64,000 bases of DNA from Nitrospirota bacterium (lineage in GTDB: Bacteria; Nitrospirota; Nitrospiria; SBBL01; JAADHI01), in contig JAJDBX010000018.1 of assembly GCA_029261135.1 (NCBI GenBank), forward strand, positions 62,001 to 126,000, given 5' to 3'. The notes beneath the pieces were generated by a model. The model was not told the DNA's origin and searched no databases. It saw only the letters and a program-made list of their open reading frames with translations. Both the position numbers and the translations under genes were made by a program. Positions within the stretch are counted from its first letter, which is position 1, and the number at the start of each line of letters is the position of its first letter. Below, piece after piece: positions 533-10,497 of the stretch.

Positions 533-1798
533 CTACTCCGGTAGGTCGATATTAATTGTGACCGGAACAGTTGTCGTTCCACCTGCTGCGGGGGCGGAGA
601 TGGGGGGCTGGGAAATATTCGGTTTTATGACCGAAGCCGAAATCTGAAAAACAGGCAAGCCTGGCGTCATGGGCCGTATTCCGAAGGCATAGTCTGGCCC
701 ATGAGCCATCATTTCTGCAGCAGAAATAATCTCATCGATGGACTGCGATAAAAGAGGGGTTTCTAAAAGTGCTGTTCTTGCTAATTCAAAATGAGGATCT
801 TCTTCAAGCGCAAGAATAAATTCCCGAGAAGCTTCGCGATAATCTCCTTGGTCGAAATGCGTGAGTCCTTCCGAAAAATGTTGGAATGCTTTTAGATTTT
901 TTGTGTGGATTTTCTCCACCTCAGTCCGGGTTTGACTATCCAGATTCTCCGGGCAATATCCCATTCCGCACAGGAGTTTAAAAACAAGAGTTTTTTCCAA
1001 GGTATAAAAATGGGACAGTGCTCCAGAGGCCTCAGCGACCGAGAGCTCTTTCGCATCTTCCGTTTTGGTGACTAAAGCATTGAGACGCATCGTTTCGTGA
1101 TCGACATCCACCAGGCTTCCTGTCGTAATTTTTGCTGCGCCCACGAGTCTCCCGATTCGAGGAGCGTTCTTGGCGTCCACAATCCCGGATCTTGTTAAGC
1201 TGAGTTCATTTAATATGGCTTGGATTTGGATGCGTTCGACCACCGTGAAGCCTTTGATCTTTGAGAGATCCGTGATGATCATTGCGGCAAGTCCCTTTGA
1301 AAGTGGGGCATAAGATATCGATCCTTTATTGAGAAAGGGATAAACAGCGATTGCTTTTGGATCCACTCTCTCTGATAGATTTTTTTCCCGTTTAATTTGA
1401 TCTTGTGCGACCCGTTTTGCTTCTTTTTGCAAAAGCAGGGTGAGATATCTTGTTATTTTTCGGGCGCCTTCACTCCCTTTTTCAAGACGAACATAAGACT
1501 GCCAGGCCTGAATAGCCTGTAGGGATTCGCCCAAACGAAGATGACTCAAGCCAAGATAAAGCGACTGCAGAGAACTGCTTTCTTCTGGGTTTCCTCGTAA
1601 TGATGAAATAAGGCCTTTGTATCGGCCTGAATGGTAGAGTGCTTTGATCTCTTTGTCGTTCACTTCCTGAGAGGCCCATCCCATCGGGGGGGCAAGGAAG
1701 AAAACCAGGACAAATGCCGTGACCAGAGAAAGAAGACATCCCCGATGAGACGGATGGTTCTTGAGCAATTGTTTAGAAAATAATTTTTGATGAAGCAT
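533..1798 (-). CDS. Periplasmic TPR protein with CsgG/FlgO-like domain
   Basis: This 421-residue protein starts with a signal peptide (hydrophobic residues about 20-42, ending in a GWAS-type cleavage site). Residues about 50-110 and 300-350 look like TPR helices. Residues about 145-275 resemble the CsgG/FlgO/TolB-N fold: a strand AVYPFLN, a helix ending in TVVERIQIQAILNEL, then an IGRLVGAAKITTGSLVDVD segment. The same order recurs in three other proteins of this cluster. CsgG itself is an outer-membrane secretion pore and FlgO a flagellar outer-membrane lipoprotein. Here no lipobox is evident, so the protein is probably periplasmic. A Pro-rich tail follows residue 380. Role in the cluster is inferred from context only. 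Confidence 0.75.
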   Translation of the reverse strand: MLHQKLFSKQLLKNHPSHRGCLLSLVTAFVLVFFLAPPMGWASQEVNDKEIKALYHSGRYKGLISSLRGNPEESSSLQSLYLGLSHLRLGESLQAIQAWQSYVRLEKGSEGARKITRYLTLLLQKEAKRVAQDQIKREKNLSERVDPKAIAVYPFLNKGSISYAPLSKGLAAMIITDLSKIKGFTVVERIQIQAILNELSLTRSGIVDAKNAPRIGRLVGAAKITTGSLVDVDHETMRLNALVTKTEDAKELSVAEASGALSHFYTLEKTLVFKLLCGMGYCPENLDSQTRTEVEKIHTKNLKAFQHFSEGLTHFDQGDYREASREFILALEEDPHFELARTALLETPLLSQSIDEIISAAEMMAHGPDYAFGIRPMTPGLPVFQISASVIKPNISQPPISAPAAGGTTTVPVTINIDLPE

Positions 1799-1859: not shown

Positions 1860-2579
1860 TTAATTGAGTGACTTTATTAATAAAATATCCATTCGGTCTT
1901 GCGCCTCATAATTTTCTGGATTCATAGAGAGTGCTTTTTGATACGCCTTCAAGGCTTCTTCATTACGGTTTTCTTTTTCTAGTTTTTGGCCCAAGCGGAA
2001 AAAGCCTCGACTGCTCATCGGTTTACGGGGCTCAGAACCCCCTACCTTTTTTAGAAAGTGTTTTGTGATGTCTTTTGAAAAAGACTGCTCCAATTGACGC
2101 CTTTCAGAGGCTAAGCCGAGAATAGAACTCGAAGTCGTAACGGTTCCCGTTTGGACTTCAACAACCCGCCCGTCGATGCGAAGGTTTCCGACAATTTCGG
2201 TGAATTCTCCCATGAGTAAATAACGGGCTCCCAACAATTTCCCCAGTTGAAGGCGGTTTTCTTTCCCGGTCAAGCCTTGGCTTGAAAGAGAGAGTTCCTG
2301 CAAAAAGAGTTCGATTGATTCCCGGTCGATGAGTGAAATTTGGGGAGAATCGGCCAATTGTCCCGAGATGTGATCTGTGACGCTTCTTGCCAGTCCAGCT
2401 GTTTCAAGTGAGGGATTGATGCTGTTATTCTCAAAAGGCAGAACGGCAACAGTCAAGAGTTGAGGTCTTTCGGAATGAGATCCCTTCAGGGTGGGTTTAG
2501 AGGAGCAAGCCATTAGGAAAAAAGACATCATCAGATAAATGGAGAATAAGTGAAGCCGTTCAGTCTGTTTTTTTAACAT
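1860..2579 (-). CDS. FlgO/CsgG-like outer-membrane lipoprotein with a TPR
   Basis: I place the start at the ATG at 2579, giving 239 residues, because it yields a clean lipoprotein signal (hydrophobic run, then FLMACSS). The longer frame would overlap the upstream gene by 140 bases; with this start the overlap is only 20 bases, which suggests translational coupling. Residues about 45-170 match the CsgG/FlgO pattern: VAVLPFENNS, then SLIDRESIELFLQELSLS, then LGKLLGARYLLMGEF. One TPR-like unit (NEEALKAYQKALSMNPENYEAQ) ends the protein. It is probably anchored in the outer membrane facing the periplasm. Function is not known. Confidence 0.75.
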   Translation of the reverse strand: MLKKQTERLHLFSIYLMMSFFLMACSSKPTLKGSHSERPQLLTVAVLPFENNSINPSLETAGLARSVTDHISGQLADSPQISLIDRESIELFLQELSLSSQGLTGKENRLQLGKLLGARYLLMGEFTEIVGNLRIDGRVVEVQTGTVTTSSSILGLASERRQLEQSFSKDITKHFLKKVGGSEPRKPMSSRGFFRLGQKLEKENRNEEALKAYQKALSMNPENYEAQDRMDILLIKSLN

Positions 2580-4476
2580 CTTCAAACACCTTGTAGTCTT
2601 TATGCACTGTGGCGGTTTTTTCAGCGAGTTTTCCGTATGAGAGCCCGTCTTCAACGGAGATAATTTCCAGAAGTCCCACTTTTTGTTTACGATGACCAAT
2701 CACTTTTCCGTCCATGACAATGGCACCCCCTTCAGAGATAATTTTCATCTGAACCCCTTTGTGAATACCATGTTTTCTTCCGAGATTGATGATGACTTGC
2801 TTGTCGGCTTCAACTAGTGCAATCTTTCCTTTCAGCGGATAGAGCAATTTGATGCGTTGAATGAGGACTTTTCCCGTCATGCGGGCTAAATCGCTCAGGG
2901 TTTTATTTGAGCCCATTTCATCGGAATAGATGATTTTAACCGAGGAGGTTTCGGGATCAATCACTCGCAGACTTAAACGGATGCCGTCGCTTGTCTCAAT
3001 CAAGTTGCCTGTAATTATCAGGCGTGCCGCCAGTATTTTCCCCAGATTTAATGCTGTTTCAGGGTCGGCCAAGTCGGAAGACCCTAACTGAAGCTCTGTC
3101 AAAAGTTTTTCCATGACCTCACGCTCGACCAAAGAAACACGCTGAGAAGACATCATCTGCGAAGAGATTTCTTGCTGGAGTAAGGCGTCCATCCCTTCGC
3201 GGAGCAACCCGCCTCCAATCGATTTCAATCCCATAAAGGCGATGGTCATGGGGCGAGAAGACCAGCGGTCTGAACGATCGACTGGCAAGACCTTCTCTGC
3301 CTTAAATCGCTCTGACAACTCAGACACAAGGCCATCGATGCGTTCTTGTCTTGCTATATCTTCCTTAAAATCAAGGTGCTGGGCGATTCGTTTTGATAGG
3401 AGCAGTGCAATTTCATCCTTTGGATCAACTGTGAGCGCTTCTCGATACAAGGCGAGCGCTTTCTGAGGTCGCCCTTGTTTTTCATAAAGCGCACCTCTAT
3501 TGGTTAAAATTTCTGTAGAATAGGGATTTTCATTAAGGGCTTGTTGATACATGGATTCGGCAAGCTGATACTCTCCGCGTTCCGAATGGATTCGACCTGC
3601 TTGGTTGTAGGCCTCTGCCCGTTGCCAATCGGTATTGAGTTTTCCTTCAATGGCATGTTTGTATTCCGACAAGGCCCCCTCTTGATCCCCTCGTATTGAC
3701 AGGACATTCGCCTTGATCAAATGAACCAGGCTATTTTGAGGATCCGTTTTTTGAATTTCTTTGCTGAGGGCAATTGCTTTTTGTGTCTCCCCCTTTTTAA
3801 GGTGTACTGCCGCGAGTCCTTCTTTTCCAAGAATCACCTCTGGAGGACTCAGTAAAACCAAAGTTGAAAAAGCCGCTTCTGCCCCATCTAATTTTCCCTC
3901 TGTTAATAAGACCTGTCCAAGTCCGGCCTGAGCCGCTGCATTTTTTGGATCTTTTTTTAATACTTGTGCGTAAAGTGTTTTAGCCAGCTTATTTTTTTTG
4001 AGTTGTAGGCTTCTATTGGCGACCGTCGTCATAAAATGATGGGATGTGGCGCCGCCCCCTTCCAAGGTATCGCTGACGCGGCCGCCCGGGCCCAGAATAT
4101 AAGTGGTTGGAAAAATAAACTGTACCCCATAGGCTTTAAAAATGCTTCCATTGTCTTTCACAATCGGAAAGGGGGCGTGAAAGTTTTTGAAAAAACCATC
4201 CAGGTCTTTTGACTTATTTTTGCTAATGGCGATCACACGAATCCCTGCTTTTTGGTATGAAGCGTAGTCGGCTTTCATCCGTTCCAAGCCCTTGATCGAA
4301 GGTTTAGAGGTCTGTTTAAAAAAATACAGGATGGTCATCGGCTTTTTTTTGCCAGAAGTGAGTTCAGCAAAAGAGGGCGCAAGTACTCCTTTTTCCAAAG
4401 CCGCTTGACTCAAGGAGGGACTTAAAAAGAATAAAAGCATGATGCCAATGAAGATGCTTTGTTGTAAGGGTTTCAT
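2560..4476 (-). CDS. Cysteine-less redoxin / TPR / FlgO-like fusion protein
   Basis: This 638-residue secreted protein has three parts. Residues 1-25 are a signal peptide. Residues about 28-145 look like a TlpA/AhpC-type thioredoxin fold, but where a CxxC or peroxidatic Cys would stand (residues 57-60) the sequence is SKPS, so it should be redox-inactive. Residues about 155-370 are a chain of TPR units, for example AEAYNQAGRIHSERGEYQLA. Residues about 405-540 repeat the CsgG/FlgO-like pattern (IAFMGLKSIG, SLVEREVMEKLLTELQLG, LGKILAARLIITGNL). The C-terminus adds a small beta domain also hinted at in the CsgG-like protein at 7384-8451. Its start overlaps the kinase stop by four bases. Confidence 0.78.
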   Translation of the reverse strand: MKPLQQSIFIGIMLLFFLSPSLSQAALEKGVLAPSFAELTSGKKKPMTILYFFKQTSKPSIKGLERMKADYASYQKAGIRVIAISKNKSKDLDGFFKNFHAPFPIVKDNGSIFKAYGVQFIFPTTYILGPGGRVSDTLEGGGATSHHFMTTVANRSLQLKKNKLAKTLYAQVLKKDPKNAAAQAGLGQVLLTEGKLDGAEAAFSTLVLLSPPEVILGKEGLAAVHLKKGETQKAIALSKEIQKTDPQNSLVHLIKANVLSIRGDQEGALSEYKHAIEGKLNTDWQRAEAYNQAGRIHSERGEYQLAESMYQQALNENPYSTEILTNRGALYEKQGRPQKALALYREALTVDPKDEIALLLSKRIAQHLDFKEDIARQERIDGLVSELSERFKAEKVLPVDRSDRWSSRPMTIAFMGLKSIGGGLLREGMDALLQQEISSQMMSSQRVSLVEREVMEKLLTELQLGSSDLADPETALNLGKILAARLIITGNLIETSDGIRLSLRVIDPETSSVKIIYSDEMGSNKTLSDLARMTGKVLIQRIKLLYPLKGKIALVEADKQVIINLGRKHGIHKGVQMKIISEGGAIVMDGKVIGHRKQKVGLLEIISVEDGLSYGKLAEKTATVHKDYKVFEDVKKTD

Positions 4477-5786
4477 TGTTTTCCCTCCTTTAATAATTTA
4501 AGGTGGATTGGAATTTTTTCTCCTGAAGACACGTCTATCGTGGCCTCCAAGTCATGGTATCCTTCTTTTGTCACAAGGATCTCATGAGATCCAGCAGGAA
4601 GATCAATGGATAGAGGGCTCCTCCCTTTCCCCTGCCCATCGACTGAAACATCCGCAGCTTCGGGCGTGGTTTCAAACACGACCTGTCCCAATAAAATGGG
4701 TGGAGAAGCTTGTTCAGGCTTCGTCAGATGTCTTTCAGGAGCAGACGATTCATTTGCTCCCATCCCGAAGTAAAAAAATATCCCGATTATCCCCAATAGG
4801 ATGAAGGAGAGCCATAAGATGGCATTGGGCCATTGAGTTACTTTCGGTGGGTCATCTGCTGTCGTTTCTATCTTGTCTTCGCTCGGCAATGAAGGCGCAG
4901 TGTCGAGAAAATCAATCTTTTTCAAAGCAGGTTCTGTCAGAGAACCTGTAATAGAATAGGTCGCGGTGGTTTCATCAATGGCGGTGACCAAGGCATCCGC
5001 CATCTCTAGACCCGATGAAAAACGCCGTTCCGGGTCTTTTTCCAAGGCCTCCATCACCACAGCACTGAAGCCTTCGGATACCTCATCAGAAATGAGGTAA
5101 GGGGCATAGGGCGTGGAATTCAAGACTTGGTGCATGATACTTGTGGCTGAATCTCCCTGAAAGGCTTTCTGTCGCGTCAGCAATTCATAAAGCAGGGTTC
5201 CAACTGCAAAAAGGTCTGAGCGCCCATCAAGCGTTTCTCCTCGACATTGTTCTGGTGACATATAAAGGGGTGTTCCTGTTAAATGGTTTGTTTGTGTGAA
5301 AGCCGTGTTATCCAAACGGGCAATGCCAAAATCTGCGATTTTGGTCACATATAAATCATCGGTTAAAAGAATATTTCCGGGTTTGATATCACGATGAACC
5401 ACCCCTTTTGAATGCGCGAAATCCAAGCCATTGCAAATTTGCACGCCAATACGAACAATCTGATCAATGGAGAGGGGCACATTGTTTTTTAGGATTTGGG
5501 CCAAAGAGATGCCTTGGATATATTCCATTACAATGTAGGTGCTGCCGGAATCAGGATCTTCCCAAACATCAAATATGGTCACAATATTGGGGTGAATCAG
5601 GCGTCCGAGGGCAAGGATTTCTTGCTGGAATCGCCGCACCGCTCCCTCATTGGATTCTGATAGATGAGGCCGGAGACACTTTAAAGCGACGGTTCGGTTA
5701 ATTTTTGGATCTTTCCCGAGATAAACCATGCCCATCGCCCCTCTGCCCAGTTCTTCAAGTATTTGATAACGACCCAATGATGTCAT
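4473..5786 (-). CDS. Membrane Ser/Thr protein kinase with C-terminal PEGA domain
   Basis: This is a Hanks-type kinase of 437 residues, counted from the ATG at 5786. Visible motifs are the Gly loop GRGAMG (15-20), invariant Lys36, HRD at 131-133, DFG at 152-154 and SPEQ near 177, so it should be catalytically active. One transmembrane helix lies at about 321-341. The part beyond it carries a PEGA domain (about 368-433: VVFETTPEAADVSVDGQGKG), a surface or periplasmic beta domain common in such kinases. The ATG at 5786 is chosen because an AGGT-type ribosome site precedes it and the kinase fold begins at once. It sits between an envelope protease and TPR/FlgO proteins, suggesting envelope sensing. 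Confidence 0.93.
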   Translation of the reverse strand: MTSLGRYQILEELGRGAMGMVYLGKDPKINRTVALKCLRPHLSESNEGAVRRFQQEILALGRLIHPNIVTIFDVWEDPDSGSTYIVMEYIQGISLAQILKNNVPLSIDQIVRIGVQICNGLDFAHSKGVVHRDIKPGNILLTDDLYVTKIADFGIARLDNTAFTQTNHLTGTPLYMSPEQCRGETLDGRSDLFAVGTLLYELLTRQKAFQGDSATSIMHQVLNSTPYAPYLISDEVSEGFSAVVMEALEKDPERRFSSGLEMADALVTAIDETTATYSITGSLTEPALKKIDFLDTAPSLPSEDKIETTADDPPKVTQWPNAILWLSFILLGIIGIFFYFGMGANESSAPERHLTKPEQASPPILLGQVVFETTPEAADVSVDGQGKGRSPLSIDLPAGSHEILVTKEGYHDLEATIDVSSGEKIPIHLKLLKEGKQ

Positions 5787-5794
5787 CTTTAAAC

Positions 5795-7282
5795 CTATTC
5801 TTTTGATTCCGCCAGGGCCAACCACTGCCCGACTAAGGCCGCATCGCGTGATGCGGGGTTTAGAGCGAGATATCTTTTGTAGTGAATGACGGCTTGTTTT
5901 TTATTCTTTAAATGGTTGTCGTACAAGATGCCCAGATTGTAATGGGCATCTGCATAACTCGGCTGACTGAGTATTGCCCTCAAATAAACGGTTTCTGCTG
6001 TTTCATACTGCTTGAGTCTGCGATACACTTCACCCAAATTATTTAATGTTTGTGCGGAATCAGGCCGAAATTCGCTGCTCATGCGCAATGCCTCAGCGGC
6101 TTCATCATATCGCTTTGCTTCAGCATAAAGCGTCCCAATTTGTAAAAAAGTCTCTCCAAGAAAGTGGCGTGCATCTCGTGCCGGAAGCGCAAAAGAAATG
6201 CCTTGCGCTTTTGGAAGGACCCCGATAATCACGCCCAACACAGCCCCTTCCCGATTGAGTAGCGGGCCTCCACTACTTCCTGGGTTAACGGCAACATCGG
6301 TCTGGAGTAAAGGTTTCTGATCAAAAATCCGTTCTGGCGCACTGATAATCCCTTTAGATGCGGAGTGATTCAAACCAAAAGGACAACCGATAGCCAGGAC
6401 AGAATCCCCTACACTGGGGGATTGTTGTAAATCGAATAAAAGAGGCGTCATCCCTTGGAAAGGAATTTGTAAGAGTGCGAGATCAAGCGTTTCACTGATG
6501 GACAGTAAGGTGGCAGGGTATGCCGTTCCATCTTGAAATCGTGCCATCAAGTGGGTTGCCCGATCCACTTGATGGCGACTTGCGAGGATATAACCCTTGT
6601 CGCCGACAATAAACCCGCTCCCTTCAACTTTTTTCTGCCCCTGCATTCCGGAAATACAAACGACTTGAGGGAAAACACCACGGTTCAGGGGTTTAATTGA
6701 AGGAGAGGCAATAGAGGGTGGTAGAGGTGAAATCGGGGGCTGAACAAGCTGTCCCGCTAAGGGGGCTGTTTCCTCTACAAGCTCAGAAAATGTGGCGACA
6801 TGCTGTGAGTTTCGATGTTCCCCAGGGATCTTCGTCAGCTGCTTGAGTTTATTTTGCGCTTTTCGTGCAAGGGGATGGTTGGGTGAGATTGAAAGAAATC
6901 GTCGATAATGGAACACCGCTTGAACGGTATCCGCTTTTTCGTAAGAATAGAGGTTTGCAAGATTATAATGTGCTTTAAAGTGGTTTTTGTCGATCCGAAC
7001 CACCTCCCGGTAACTTGAAATTGCGTCATCGATTTTTTCCAAACGCTGAGAAATATTCCCGCGTTTAAAAAGGGCTTCTGTATTTTCAGGGTAATTTTTA
7101 ATGGCTTGATCTAAATGCTGAATGGCTTTTTCCCAGCGACCTTGATCGTAGGCGATCAATCCCTCTTCCAGGTCTGTGGGGCCGATACCTTCAGGAGCGA
7201 TATGTCGGAAACATCCATTTAAAACGCTCAAACTGAGTATTAAAATGCTTAGGGATAATCTACTTTTTTTCCTTTTAATCAT
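5795..7282 (-). CDS. TPR lipoprotein with trypsin-like (DegP-type) protease domain
   Basis: The 495-residue product begins with a lipoprotein signal (lipobox LNGC, Cys24). TPR units occupy about 30-150, a Pro/Ser-rich linker follows, and residues about 205-370 form an S1C trypsin-like domain. The catalytic triad is intact: His237 in SRHQV, Asp267 in LDLAL, and Ser337 in NPGSSGGP. More TPR units fill 375-490, in place of the PDZ domains of DegP. It is likely an outer-membrane-anchored periplasmic protease or regulated scaffold. It is the first gene after the promoter at 7347-7375 and is followed closely by the kinase gene. Confidence 0.9.
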   Translation of the reverse strand: MIKRKKSRLSLSILILSLSVLNGCFRHIAPEGIGPTDLEEGLIAYDQGRWEKAIQHLDQAIKNYPENTEALFKRGNISQRLEKIDDAISSYREVVRIDKNHFKAHYNLANLYSYEKADTVQAVFHYRRFLSISPNHPLARKAQNKLKQLTKIPGEHRNSQHVATFSELVEETAPLAGQLVQPPISPLPPSIASPSIKPLNRGVFPQVVCISGMQGQKKVEGSGFIVGDKGYILASRHQVDRATHLMARFQDGTAYPATLLSISETLDLALLQIPFQGMTPLLFDLQQSPSVGDSVLAIGCPFGLNHSASKGIISAPERIFDQKPLLQTDVAVNPGSSGGPLLNREGAVLGVIIGVLPKAQGISFALPARDARHFLGETFLQIGTLYAEAKRYDEAAEALRMSSEFRPDSAQTLNNLGEVYRRLKQYETAETVYLRAILSQPSYADAHYNLGILYDNHLKNKKQAVIHYKRYLALNPASRDAALVGQWLALAESKE

Positions 7283-7321: not shown

Positions 7322-7375
7322 TGTCTTAGGCCTTGTGAGCGCTTGTATTCTAAGACAGCGCTTTTTAAGCGTCAA
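7322..7375 (-). promoter_or_regulatory. Sigma-70-type promoter with overlapping inverted repeat
   Basis: On the minus strand TTGACG (7370-7375) and TAGAAT (7347-7352) are separated by exactly 17 bases. An 8-bp perfect inverted repeat, tgtcttag at 7322-7329 and ctaagaca at 7350-7357, overlaps the -10 box and could bind a repressor. The promoter would drive the protease-kinase-TPR operon separately from the sigma-54 unit upstream. Confidence 0.6.
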
Positions 7376-7383
7376 GCTCATCC

Positions 7384-8451
7384 CTACTCAAGCACAGGAT
7401 AGGCCTTCCCTCCATAACTTAATTTTTCAATTTCATGCAGCGTTCGATAATCCTCAGCTGTTCCCGATTTTGGAAAGGGCTGAGCAAATCGGACAATGTC
7501 TCCTTTTTTTGGCAGAATACTTCCCCGAACCATACGCGCCTCTGATAATTTGTCTCGTGCGGCGACCACACCCAGTTCACCCACAGGATTTTCTATTAAT
7601 CCGATGACTTGGTTTGTTTCAGGATCGGTCAATACTTTTTTAATTGAAAAAACAGAGAGACGGTCGCCCACTTGGATTTGGGCATTGGTTCCGACATTGA
7701 GATAAATGATTTGATTTTCCACATGGATGACCTTGCCGATCCAATTTGAATACGTTTGCAAGCGTTCCTGAACTGAGGCCAGCACAAAACCTAGACTGTC
7801 GTGGATGACCTTGCGTGTTGCCTTTCCCAGTGGGGTTTTATGAAAAGCGTCTCCCCCAAAGGTTAATGTGGGAAAACTCAGATCGACTGCAAGTGCTTTT
7901 TCCCAGGCTCGGCCTTCAGCGCGCTGAGATCGCAAGATTTCTCCAGTGGATGTGTCGATAATTCTCAGGTCAATCGCGACATGCGCCGCGGTGAACTCTC
8001 CTGAAATCTTGGGGAAAATTCCACTCAACCAACCTGCACGACCGCCACCTCCAACCGCCTTTTGTTCAAACTCAGTGACTTGACCGACAATCAGGTAGTC
8101 CACACCCAATAATTGCCCTACCTGTGCGGCGGTTTCTTTTGTCACCAGTTTGGAATCAGAAAGTTCTTGCTCCCTTAAGATTTGAGACAGGATCGCCCGT
8201 TCCACGACAATCACCTGTCCGGTATCGATCAGCTCGGTCACGAGTTGTGCTGAAAGTCCTCCACCAATATCCCAGCCACCATACATTTGAGCAAATCGGT
8301 CTGTCGCGCCAAATCGTGCAACGGCGACCCTGACCTTTGTTCCACCCCCTAAAGAAGTGGATGCTGCTTCAAGGATTGGCTGGGAAGTGATGAGCAATGA
8401 ATAGATGAATACAACTAAACCTGCGATCGTTACTCTCATTTTTTGCTTCAT
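7384..8451 (-). CDS. CsgG/HfaB-like secretion or assembly protein
   Basis: Starting at the ATG at 8451 (preceded by GGAGAG), the 355-residue protein has a signal peptide ending near LEAAS without an obvious lipobox. Residues about 38-235 follow the CsgG/HfaB pattern: VRVAVARFGATD, the helix with VVERAILSQILREQELS, then VGQLLGVDYLIVGQVTEFEQ and a Gly-rich loop, ending in RKVIHDSLGFVLASVQERL. A C-terminal beta-rich region (about 255-340: VIYLNVGTNAQIQVGDRLSVF-like) is an SH3-type or barrel-like extension. CsgG pores export curli subunits, HfaB anchors the Caulobacter holdfast. The gene follows four small secreted proteins in the same transcription direction, so they are plausible clients; that is inference. 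Confidence 0.82.
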   Translation of the reverse strand: MKQKMRVTIAGLVVFIYSLLITSQPILEAASTSLGGGTKVRVAVARFGATDRFAQMYGGWDIGGGLSAQLVTELIDTGQVIVVERAILSQILREQELSDSKLVTKETAAQVGQLLGVDYLIVGQVTEFEQKAVGGGGRAGWLSGIFPKISGEFTAAHVAIDLRIIDTSTGEILRSQRAEGRAWEKALAVDLSFPTLTFGGDAFHKTPLGKATRKVIHDSLGFVLASVQERLQTYSNWIGKVIHVENQIIYLNVGTNAQIQVGDRLSVFSIKKVLTDPETNQVIGLIENPVGELGVVAARDKLSEARMVRGSILPKKGDIVRFAQPFPKSGTAEDYRTLHEIEKLSYGGKAYPVLE

Positions 8452-8477
8452 GGCGCACTCTCCGTTTGTCACCTTGT

Positions 8478-8954
8478 TTAGCAACGCTTTTCTGTTTGAT
8501 TGATAATATTTACATTCACTTCGTTGTTGATGCTGCCATCATTATTTTCAACATCGGCGTCATTGCTCGAATCGATCACAACATCACCTAAAATCACAAC
8601 GCCCCCTTCACCCGTCACCTTTTCCAAGCGGGATCTAGCACGATCCGCACTGGTGCACTCTGCCCCAGGCGGGGATGAAGGGAAGATATTTGCCCGAACG
8701 CGAATATTTTTTTCAGTTCTTTCTTGGCGTTTTCTAAGGCCACGAAGCTCTTTTTTAAATGCTTTTTCTTCTTTTGCTTTTTCTTTTTCTTCGATTGTCT
8801 TTTCCCCTGCATCATCTTTTTCAGATTCAGCGGCCTCCTGGATTGCGTCTTCACTTAAAAGAGGGGGTGCTGCCAGAGCTTCACGCACAAGCCCCCCGAA
8901 GCATAAAGACAAAAGGAGAAGGATTGTACTCGAGCTGATCTGTGTTTTTTTCAT
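8478..8954 (-). CDS. Small secreted coiled-coil protein with Asn/Val-rich tail
   Basis: From the ATG at 8954 (AAGGAG upstream) the product is 158 residues. It has a signal peptide ending in EALAA, a highly charged Lys/Glu segment (about 30-80) likely to form a coiled coil, and a C-terminal tail of alternating Val/Ile/Asn/Asp ending VNVNIINQ. That tail resembles the endings of the small proteins upstream (FNVNQ), so it may be a divergent relative that gained a coiled coil. It ends 26 bases before the CsgG-like start. I do not recognise a named family. Confidence 0.7.
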   Translation of the reverse strand: MKKTQISSSTILLLLSLCFGGLVREALAAPPLLSEDAIQEAAESEKDDAGEKTIEEKEKAKEEKAFKKELRGLRKRQERTEKNIRVRANIFPSSPPGAECTSADRARSRLEKVTGEGGVVILGDVVIDSSNDADVENNDGSINNEVNVNIINQTEKRC

Positions 8955-9003
8955 GACCTTTCTCCTTTTCATTTAATCGTGTTTTAAAGATCCCATTGAT
9001 AAA

Positions 9004-9354
9004 TTATCGGTTGCTCGACGTTGTGGTGTTGTTTGTATTGTTATGGCTTTTATTCACACCCATGATGATGGTACTTGAAGTGGTATTGATATCCCCCGAA
9101 TTTGAGCCGACTTCCACATGATTTGATGTATTCATTTCAACCCCACTGACTACGATACTGTCTCTTAAGTTGCCGAAGTGTTGTGTCCGCTCCTCGTTCT
9201 GTGCTTCTTCATTGGGAAGTTCTTCATCATCCTCTTCGTAGGCCTCGGATGTATCGCCCTCGCAGGACATTAGACATCCTGCATCAATTGAGGCGATATC
9301 CCCCCAAAAAAACAGCATGCCCAGTATGATTGCCATGGTGATATTTTTGTTCAT
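9004..9354 (-). CDS. Small secreted Asn/Thr-rich protein, third paralogue
   Basis: The ATG at 9354 follows an AAGGAG ribosome site and gives 116 residues. A signal peptide is followed by AGCLMSC, an acidic stretch, then a region similar to the two paralogues upstream: DSIVVSGVEMN and IIMGVNKSHNN correspond to DSVVVKDVTVE and LMQGVDKSHDN. The C-terminus is a low-complexity Asn/Thr/Ser run. It is clearly more diverged than the other two copies. Export through the neighbouring CsgG-like protein and amyloid-like assembly are possible but unproven. Confidence 0.75.
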   Translation of the reverse strand: MNKNITMAIILGMLFFWGDIASIDAGCLMSCEGDTSEAYEEDDEELPNEEAQNEERTQHFGNLRDSIVVSGVEMNTSNHVEVGSNSGDINTTSSTIIMGVNKSHNNTNNTTTSSNR

Positions 9355-9399
9355 TGTCCCAGTCTCCTTTGGTTCAGATGCATCCATATAAAAGACTTT

Positions 9400-9433
9400 G
9401 CCGGGAAGGGGGAGGCTTTCCATCCTTCCCGGC
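9400..9433 (-). terminator. Intergenic hairpin after second small-protein gene
   Basis: A 10-bp perfect stem (gccgggaagg at 9400-9409, ccttcccggc at 9424-9433) encloses a 14-base loop, between the genes ending at 9450 and starting at 9354. No T-run follows on the minus strand, so it may stabilise or process the mRNA rather than end transcription fully. Confidence 0.55.
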
Positions 9434-9449
9434 TCTTGTTTTGAATCGA

Positions 9450-9812
9450 CTACTGGTTTACGTTGAACTCGGTGTTTGTGCGAGAAAAATTGTCGTGACT
9501 TTTGTCGACGCCCTGCATTAAGGCTGTGGAGTTGGCTTGGACTTGGCTGCCGACCACATCTCCGCGAACATGGGCATTGGTGTTCCCGGCTTCCACGGTC
9601 ACGTCCTTGACAACGACACTGTCGGTGGCAAATTGCCCCATGTTATCAACCTGATTTCCGCCGATGTTGTCGCTGTCGTTACGGCTGGTGTCAATATTGG
9701 TCGATTCATCGTCTCCGCCGCAGCCAAAGAAACATCCGGCTTCACTCTGCACTGCTGATCCAAAAACCATGGCTAATCCTAAAAACGCTGCAATTACTGT
9801 CATTTTCTTCAT
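9450..9812 (-). CDS. Small secreted Asn/Gln/Ser-rich protein, second paralogue
   Basis: This 120-residue protein has a signal peptide ending QSEA, then GCFFGCGGDD. The mature part alternates hydrophobic and polar residues and is rich in Asn, Gln, Ser, Gly and Asp (SDNIGGNQVDNMGQF, GDVVGSQVQANSTALMQG). By eye it is about three quarters identical to the first paralogue (9899-10261). The composition recalls curli-type amyloid subunits but the curlin repeat is not strictly present. With a CsgG-like gene in the same direction downstream it is a candidate surface-fibre or matrix protein. The family name is unknown to me. Confidence 0.82.
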   Translation of the reverse strand: MKKMTVIAAFLGLAMVFGSAVQSEAGCFFGCGGDDESTNIDTSRNDSDNIGGNQVDNMGQFATDSVVVKDVTVEAGNTNAHVRGDVVGSQVQANSTALMQGVDKSHDNFSRTNTEFNVNQ

Positions 9813-9846
9813 TTTTATTTCTCCTTTTTATTTGAATTTATTTTGA

Positions 9847-9880
9847 GCTGGGATAGCTGAAGTCTCTCCCCTATCCCAGC
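9847..9880 (-). terminator. Intergenic hairpin after first small-protein gene
   Basis: A 10-bp perfect stem (gctgggatag at 9847-9856, ctatcccagc at 9871-9880) with a 14-base loop lies between the first and second paralogue. Stem and loop sizes equal those of the hairpin at 9400-9433 although the sequences differ. No T-run follows, so partial termination or mRNA protection is more likely than a full stop. Confidence 0.55.
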
Positions 9881-9898
9881 ATGGTTTCTTGCACTCGA

Positions 9899-10261
9899 TT
9901 ACTGATTGACGTTAAAAGTGGTCGTGTTGGTTGAGATGTTGTCATGACTTTTATCCACACCCTGCATCAGCGCCGTGGAGTTTGCTTGTACTTGGCTGCC
10001 AATGACATCCCCGCTAATGTGGGCATGGGTGTTGCCTGATTCAATCGTGACATCCTTGGCCACAACACTGTCGACTGCGAACTGACCCATGTTGTCAATT
10101 TGATCGCCGCCGATATTATCGCTGTCTTCCCGGCTTGCATCGACATTGACGGATTCATCGTCTCCGCCGCAGCCAATGAAACATCCCGCTTCGCTCTGCG
10201 CCACTGATCCGAACACCAAAGCCATTCCCATAAACGCTGCAAAAATTGTCATTTTTTTCAT
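9899..10261 (-). CDS. Small secreted Asn/Gln/Ser-rich protein, first paralogue
   Basis: This 120-residue protein is the promoter-proximal member of the tandem family. It has a signal peptide ending QSEA, then GCFIGCGGDD and a mature region with SDNIGGDQIDNMGQF and GDVIGSQVQANSTALMQG. About 27 of 120 positions differ from the second paralogue, mostly conservative swaps, indicating a fairly recent duplication under purifying selection. A GGAG ribosome site precedes the ATG at 10261. The leader is about 85 bases if transcription begins at the sigma-54 promoter at 10359-10374. Function is unknown; a secreted structural role is suggested by composition and by the CsgG-like neighbour. Confidence 0.82.
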   Translation of the reverse strand: MKKMTIFAAFMGMALVFGSVAQSEAGCFIGCGGDDESVNVDASREDSDNIGGDQIDNMGQFAVDSVVAKDVTIESGNTHAHISGDVIGSQVQANSTALMQGVDKSHDNISTNTTTFNVNQ

Positions 10262-10358
10262 TTTGAATTCTCCTTATTTTTATTATTTGTATTGAATTGA
10301 AAATGAAAGTGCCTCATGCCCCCTCATTGCTCGCCATCGCGTTACGGGATAGGCATAG

Positions 10359-10374
10359 AGCAAGCAGTGTGCCA
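10359..10374 (-). promoter_or_regulatory. Sigma-54 (RpoN) promoter for the small-protein operon
   Basis: On the minus strand the sequence is TGGCAC, five bases, TTGCT, an exact match to the sigma-54 -24/-12 consensus with GG and GC ten bases apart. It lies about 100 bases upstream of the first paralogue in a non-coding stretch of about 320 bases. It is the only good match I found in the window and implies control by an enhancer-binding activator. Confidence 0.8.
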
Positions 10375-10481
10375 AACTTAAAAAGGAGAAAAGACCTCGA
10401 TAAATGGCTTGTTTTATGGGGTTTTAATTTAAAAGGATGTGTTTTTCTTGTTCTCGGAAATTTTTTTTATAGAATTCAGAA

Positions 10482-10497
10482 AAATGGGATTCCATTT
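10482..10497. promoter_or_regulatory. Inverted repeat upstream of the sigma-54 promoter
   Basis: The sequence aaatgg-gatt-ccattt is a perfect 6-bp inverted repeat with a 4-base centre, about 110 bases upstream of the -24 box. That spacing suits an enhancer site for a sigma-54 activator. The rest of 10262-10580 holds only AT-rich leader and no gene. Confidence 0.3.

Follow-up and report, generated by a model that had tools for sequence, protein, structure and literature searches.

A Sigma-54-Associated Cluster of Small Secreted Proteins and a CsgG-like Protein in Nitrospirota: A Candidate Surface-Fiber or Matrix Secretion System

Genes of the Locus

The window analyzed here, a 64,000-nt stretch of contig JAJDBX010000018.1 (assembly GCA_029261135.1) from a Nitrospirota bacterium with a 3.2 Mb genome, carries a run of genes lying entirely on the minus strand. 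The run begins with four genes for small secreted proteins (sp1 to sp4; sp denotes the gene or its product) and continues with a gene for a CsgG-like protein. All coordinates refer to this window (Table 1), and the genomes and loci compared with it are designated by G- and L-numbers, respectively. Because of the named relatives of the CsgG-like protein, the host genome is assigned to the order within the Nitrospirota that includes the manganese-oxidizing Candidatus Manganitrophus. A literature search turned up no account of the locus.

In a preliminary description of the window, three of the small proteins were taken to be paralogues, in agreement with a whole-genome search: sp1 and sp2 share 78% identity, with sp3 more distantly related. 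The same description counted sp4 as a possible fourth paralogue, which does not hold over the full length of the protein; the resemblance is confined to its last ~40 residues, which are similar to the C-terminus of the sp proteins. The hhalign score of this resemblance is 18.3, against a mean of 10.6 (standard deviation 2.0, maximum 16.7) for 200 column shuffles, with an hhalign probability of only 3–4%. All four proteins have an apparent N-terminal signal peptide, judged by inspection only. The composition of sp1–sp3 is rich in Asn, Ser, Thr, and Gly, and two conserved Cys residues are located at the mature N-terminus of the small proteins. Profile searches of sp1–sp4 against Pfam and NCBIfam returned no match to any family, related or unrelated. 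Orthologues of sp3 with 81–82% identity occupy the same slot in two sister species (L035 and L036).

The assignment of the fifth gene product is borne out by its match to the CsgG family PF03783 (E 4e-31; 108 bits, cut-off 20.8), which covers 197 of the 210 model positions. In an alignment with the true CsgG of genome G005, the region of the first CsgG transmembrane hairpin is present at a comparable length, with an overall identity of 21%. The best NCBIfam match is HfaB (NF037935), with 26.6 bits against a cut-off of 300.

Promoter, Enhancer, and Intergenic Hairpins

The sigma-54 promoter reported earlier upstream of the operon is confirmed as a near-consensus site, TGGCACACTGCTTGCT, at 10374–10359 on the minus strand, the only 11/12 match in the window. 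The pattern TGGCAC-N5-TTGCW occurs five times genome-wide, compared with two occurrences of the reversed-pattern control. Each of the 12 loci scanned, all with a sequence-related first sp, has a sigma-54 site between −91 and −124 relative to that first gene; no such site precedes the second or third sp gene. A weaker site, TGGCATGGGATTTGCT, is located at −107 in L079, and a sigma-54-like site lies 105 bp upstream in L084. G007 contains three dispersed sp copies, each with its own sigma-54 site. Two extra copies lie away from the main cluster (L039:4121-6499), where each has its own site and enhancer and is followed by a hairpin and then a T-run, resembling a terminator. Transcription of the window's operon would be expected to start near 10347 and to depend on RpoN. 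The other perfect sigma-54 sites of the genome were considered and set aside, as they precede genes with no obvious tie to this system; one (L072, G000:C34:24349-24364) closely follows a sigma-54 activator gene and is itself followed by a small gene and a NuoF-like gene.

Alignment of the promoters also revealed a tandem enhancer, newly described here, which consists of two 16-bp boxes near TTTCCGGAATCCGAAA, 20–22 bp apart and 88–133 bp upstream. With a matrix built from these boxes, all 15 promoters of the order's sp1-type (Manganitrophaceae-type) loci scored above every one of 300 shuffles. The matrix was built with the tested clade left out; the boxes were first chosen by eye, so that bias is limited rather than removed. 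The enhancer of the window is the best box pair in its 64 kb, with a score of 31.6 versus 15.5 for the best unrelated pair. The G008 enhancer is only borderline (6/300).

Every one of the 15 gaps that separate sp genes, L084 included, contains strong hairpins, with z values from −2.2 to −6.8 and sequences unrelated between genomes. The gap between the last sp gene and sp4 contains a hairpin in five of eight cases, G008 among them. The hairpins between sp genes would fit mRNA processing that leaves the subunit message in excess.

Candidate Activator and Kinase

The host genome encodes one rpoN and 16 sigma-54 activators. A candidate regulator among them is an activator with two FHA domains (identified by Pfam), to which the activator gene beside the start of the G008 operon is closest; this G008 gene is a fragment cut by the contig end, and no FHA match is found on it. 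Full-length orthologues of the FHA activator (54–75% identity) occur in 12 of the 13 genomes with the system, the only one lacking it being G016, which is 72% complete. Elsewhere among the 41 genomes searched, the activator was found in G005 alone. In G013, its gene and the last cluster gene are convergent; G008 has an orthologue on another contig in the same arrangement with the barrel gene, so that the activator adjoins the cluster in two families. FHA domains recognize phosphothreonine (PMC6213207). Since the cluster also encodes a Ser/Thr kinase with intact motifs, a functional link between this kinase and the FHA activator is proposed.

Distribution and Absence of Curli Genes

Homologues of sp1 occur in 12 of 147 related genomes, every one in the Manganitrophus order. 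The order sp-sp(-sp)-sp4-CsgG is kept in these relatives wherever the contig shows it, as is the downstream order of HtrA, kinase, and redoxin-TPR genes where contigs are long enough. The small proteins were not found without their CsgG neighbor, since this CsgG adjoins them in every sampled genome in which both sides of the locus are visible; in G002, the contig stops inside the first sp gene. A metagenome-assembled genome (MAG) labeled Nitrospira sp. (L079) contains a single sp along with sp4, CsgG, and the genes that lie downstream. G008, from another family of the order, also has a small protein in this position ahead of sp4 and CsgG, but its sequence is unrecognizable. In a Deltaproteobacteria MAG (L084), sp4 and a CsgG with 56% identity are preceded by two small Asn-rich proteins for which BLAST gave no match to sp. 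One of these two has ICLNNC after its apparent signal peptide, similar to ICLIGC in Manganitrophus sp proteins. A profile of the sp4 domain (A5) matched seven of 396 Nitrospirota genomes, exactly the seven in which CsgG matches better than 1e-130. More distant CsgG relatives from other Nitrospirota classes (E ~1e-60) were rejected as members of the system; in the loci examined they have different neighbors (LPP20-like, FecR-like, and others) and no BLAST match to sp or sp4.

The minimal curlin repeat is X6QXGX2NX10, and some curli lineages are missing CsgE, some CsgF (PMC3521004). The preliminary description noted the absence of the curlin repeat and of CsgE/F from this locus; the whole host genome contains neither the curlin repeat (PF07012) nor CsgE (PF10627) or CsgF (PF10614). 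The same search found CsgE and CsgF in none of the genomes with the system and was positive for the E. coli control and for G005; curlin repeats are likewise absent from every genome carrying the system. Because the subunits, CsgE, and CsgF were each tested with these results, the system is not classed as curli. G005 does not have the system, although it belongs to the same genus as G007, which does; its curli operon is complete and encodes CsgE, CsgF, CsgG, and curlin-repeat proteins (L146:6377-12175, G005:C43). G012, also without the system, has CsgF and curlin-repeat matches. Curli therefore occur in 0 of 13 genomes with the system versus two of five without it (one-sided P 0.065), a distribution that is only suggestive of mutual exclusion.

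Downstream Genes and Feature Coordinates

According to the preliminary description, the operon ended at the CsgG-like gene. This is corrected here: the run in the same direction continues through genes for an HtrA-TPR protein, a kinase, a redoxin-like/TPR/CsgG protein, and two CsgG-domain proteins, in conserved order. The sigma-54 unit proper may nevertheless stop at CsgG in the window's genus, because a sigma-70-like site (7375–7347) lies between the CsgG and HtrA genes. L035 and L036 have a comparable TTGAC...TAGAAT between these two genes. In this genus, the site could supply the kinase independently.

The redoxin-like domain has no CxxC in nine of nine orthologues examined and is, on that account, probably not an active thiol enzyme. 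The cluster ends with a 1305-aa surface-type protein, whose G013 counterpart has fn3 repeats in place of the DUF1565 and InlB-like repeats, and with a gene for a TPR/beta-barrel protein past the window edge. Just beyond the cluster, on the opposite strand (L034:3-1874), sugar-epimerase-like and glycosyltransferase-like genes are found, a possible link to polysaccharide.

Table 1. Features of the cluster in window coordinates, with L034 coordinates where available (MFE, minimum free energy).
Feature	Coordinates	Strand	Basis
Tandem enhancer (upstream activator site); boxes 10482–10467 TTTCTGAATTCTATAA and 10460–10445 TTTCCGAGAACAAGAA, 22 bp apart	10445..10482	-	Matrix scores
Sigma-54 −24/−12 promoter TGGCACACTGCTTGCT	10359..10374	-	Sole best match in window; conservation
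sp1, 120 aa, apparent signal peptide then GCFIGC	9899..10261	-	Homologues in 12/147 related genomes; no Pfam/NCBIfam match
Stem-loop after sp1, no U-run	9847..9880	-	Gap MFE −21.2 kcal/mol, z −5.3
sp2, 120 aa, 78% identity with sp1	9450..9812	-	Sequence comparison
Stem-loop after sp2, no U-run	9400..9433	-	Gap MFE −33.4, z −3.9
sp3, 116 aa, distant paralogue	9004..9354	-	E 3.3e-10 to sp1 (whole-genome search)
sp4, 158 aa, Lys/Glu-rich N-terminal half, conserved C-terminal domain ending KRC	8478..8954	-	Profile A5
CsgG-family protein, C-terminal FlgT_C-like extension, no lipobox Cys	7384..8451	-	PF03783 E 4e-31; Foldseek
Sigma-70-like promoter TTGACG-17-TAGAAT before HtrA gene	7347..7375	-	10/12 match
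HtrA-like protease domain between TPRs, apparent lipoprotein	5795..7282	-	Pfam Trypsin_2 and TPR; H, D, S motifs present
Hanks-type Ser/Thr kinase with PEGA domain, start GTG 5825 or ATG 5786	4473..5825	-	Pfam Pkinase E 2e-54, PEGA; HRD/DFG intact
Degenerate redoxin (no CxxC), TPR, CsgG/FlgT_C-like domain	2560..4476	-	Pfam; conserved order
Small CsgG-domain protein with TPR, apparent lipoprotein, start uncertain	1860..2699 (L034:8861-9700)	-	PF03783 E 4e-10
CsgG-domain and TPR protein	533..1798 (L034:7534-8799)	-	PF03783 E 9e-12
1305-aa surface-type protein, DUF1565 and InlB-like repeats, cluster end	window edge 1-489 (L034:3573-7490)		

Proposed Mechanism and Alternative Explanations

The sigma-54 site conserved in 12 of 12 loci together with its enhancer, the gene set beside CsgG, and the absence of curli genes support the original suggestion of a distinct surface-fiber or matrix secretion system under RpoN control. 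The explanation considered probable is a CsgG-dependent system that exports sp1–sp3 over the outer membrane to a surface fiber or matrix, working in a curli-like manner with unrelated subunits. In the proposed mechanism, every biochemical step of which is inferred, the FHA-domain sigma-54 activator would bind the two tandem boxes and switch on sp1-sp2-sp3-sp4-csgG, while the Ser/Thr kinase of the cluster would probably feed the activator by phosphorylation. The sp1–sp3 proteins would pass the inner membrane by Sec, and the hairpins after sp1 and sp2 would allow subunit mRNA to outlast machinery mRNA, giving an excess of subunits. For sp4, a hypothetical role as chaperone or nucleator is proposed: it would hold or deliver subunits, or seed assembly via its subunit-like C-terminus. 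A ring of the CsgG-like protein is hypothesized to form the export pore for the subunits, and the HtrA-TPR lipoprotein and further CsgG/TPR proteins may provide periplasmic quality control or act as ring partners. Fiber formation by the exported proteins is likewise a hypothesis.

Several observations weigh against this explanation. QxGxxN, the core of the curlin repeat, is absent from the 27 sp and 11 sp4 proteins examined, and AlphaFold prediction of sp1 with 27 homologues gave no fold (predicted local distance difference test, pLDDT, 40). G005 keeps the FHA activator without having the system; an enhancer shared with its curli operon was considered and ruled out, as that operon has neither the enhancer nor a good sigma-54 site. 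No enhancer was found in the Deltaproteobacteria locus by matrix scan. The AlphaFold model of the CsgG-like protein is weak (52), with the second hairpin not resolved, and was used solely for a rough fold match; with it, Foldseek ranked FlgT first and CsgG behind both FlgT and the LPHT ring, and also matched CT253, GNA1162, and PelC. The protein carries a FlgT_C-like C-terminal domain, and by inspection none of nine aligned orthologues has a lipobox Cys at the signal-peptide end, where the true CsgG of G005 has one. These properties of the CsgG-like protein would suit a poreless FlgT/LpoB/PelC-type ring or scaffold in the periplasm, as would the HtrA, TPR, and extra CsgG-domain proteins of the cluster; the small proteins would then be periplasmic or bound to the outer membrane, within an envelope-assembly or stress system that includes the HtrA protease. 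Such an arrangement is rather unlikely, given that PF03783 is matched nearly end to end and the first transmembrane hairpin region has a length like that of true CsgG, while duplicated Asn/Ser-rich secreted proteins with intergenic hairpins suit subunits better than periplasmic factors.

The exported small proteins could also form a surface coat rather than a fiber, anchoring an exopolysaccharide as HfaABD does in the Caulobacter holdfast. HfaB is the best NCBIfam match, albeit below the cut-off, and HfaA, a small protein that is CsgA-like and forms multimers, needs HfaB for its targeting (PMC6707917); large surface-type proteins with DUF1565, fn3, or InlB-like repeats lie at the cluster end, and glycosyltransferase-like and sugar-epimerase-like genes lie just past it on the other strand. 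The conserved cluster itself, however, holds no polysaccharide genes, the HfaB score is low, and no Pfam or NCBIfam match ties the small proteins to HfaA or HfaD, which makes an anchor of this type distinctly improbable. Soluble secreted effectors of a non-structural kind (metal-binding, signaling, or antagonistic) would fit small proteins that diverge strongly from one family to another and have two conserved Cys at their mature N-terminus; their polar low-complexity composition, their duplication, and the lack of a recognizable effector domain make this very improbable.

Somewhat less likely than not, the cluster represents a separate class of CsgG-dependent surface-fiber system that occurs in two or more bacterial lineages and has subunit families and an accessory protein (sp4) of its own. 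On this reading, matrix production in manganese-oxidizing chemolithoautotrophs may be tied to the state of the envelope by the kinase/FHA/sigma-54 circuit, and the system may replace curli within the order. Curli and the holdfast anchor supply most known cases of matrix-forming surface proteins exported through CsgG, and a third, differently built set would mean that the CsgG channel recruited unrelated subunits more than once. Relatives of the Mn(II)-oxidizing Nitrospirota are present in biofilms and build nodules of Mn oxide (PMC11442690). The locus yields a short list of candidate genes for the matrix of Mn(II)-oxidizing Nitrospirota.

Comparison with Known Systems

In curli, CsgG is a lipoprotein that builds an outer-membrane beta-barrel from two hairpins per subunit, and the secreted subunits assemble into amyloid fibers. 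The system resembles curli in that a CsgG-family protein adjoins small Asn/Ser-rich secreted proteins of similar size and the C-terminus of sp4 resembles the subunits, as CsgB resembles CsgA. It differs in having no curlin repeat, CsgE, or CsgF, in a CsgG without a lipobox and with an extra C-terminal domain, and in a sigma-54 promoter with an enhancer; the true curli of G005 are located at another locus. The Caulobacter holdfast anchor HfaABD likewise combines a CsgG homologue, HfaB, with small surface proteins, whereas here the match reaches 26.6 of 300 bits, the small proteins have no NCBIfam family, and the neighboring genes are different. The ring proteins FlgT, LpoB, and PelC have the CsgG-type alpha/beta domain in common with the CsgG-like protein, and FlgT also shares the type of C-terminal domain. 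In contrast to them, the CsgG-like protein gives an end-to-end match to the CsgG model, and its gene lies beside subunit-like genes, not flagellar, peptidoglycan, or Pel genes. Pairs of an FHA regulator and a Hanks-type Ser/Thr kinase, such as EmbR-PknH, are comparable in their components; here, however, a sigma-54 activator carries the FHA domains, two in number, and the cluster proposed to be under its control encodes the kinase.

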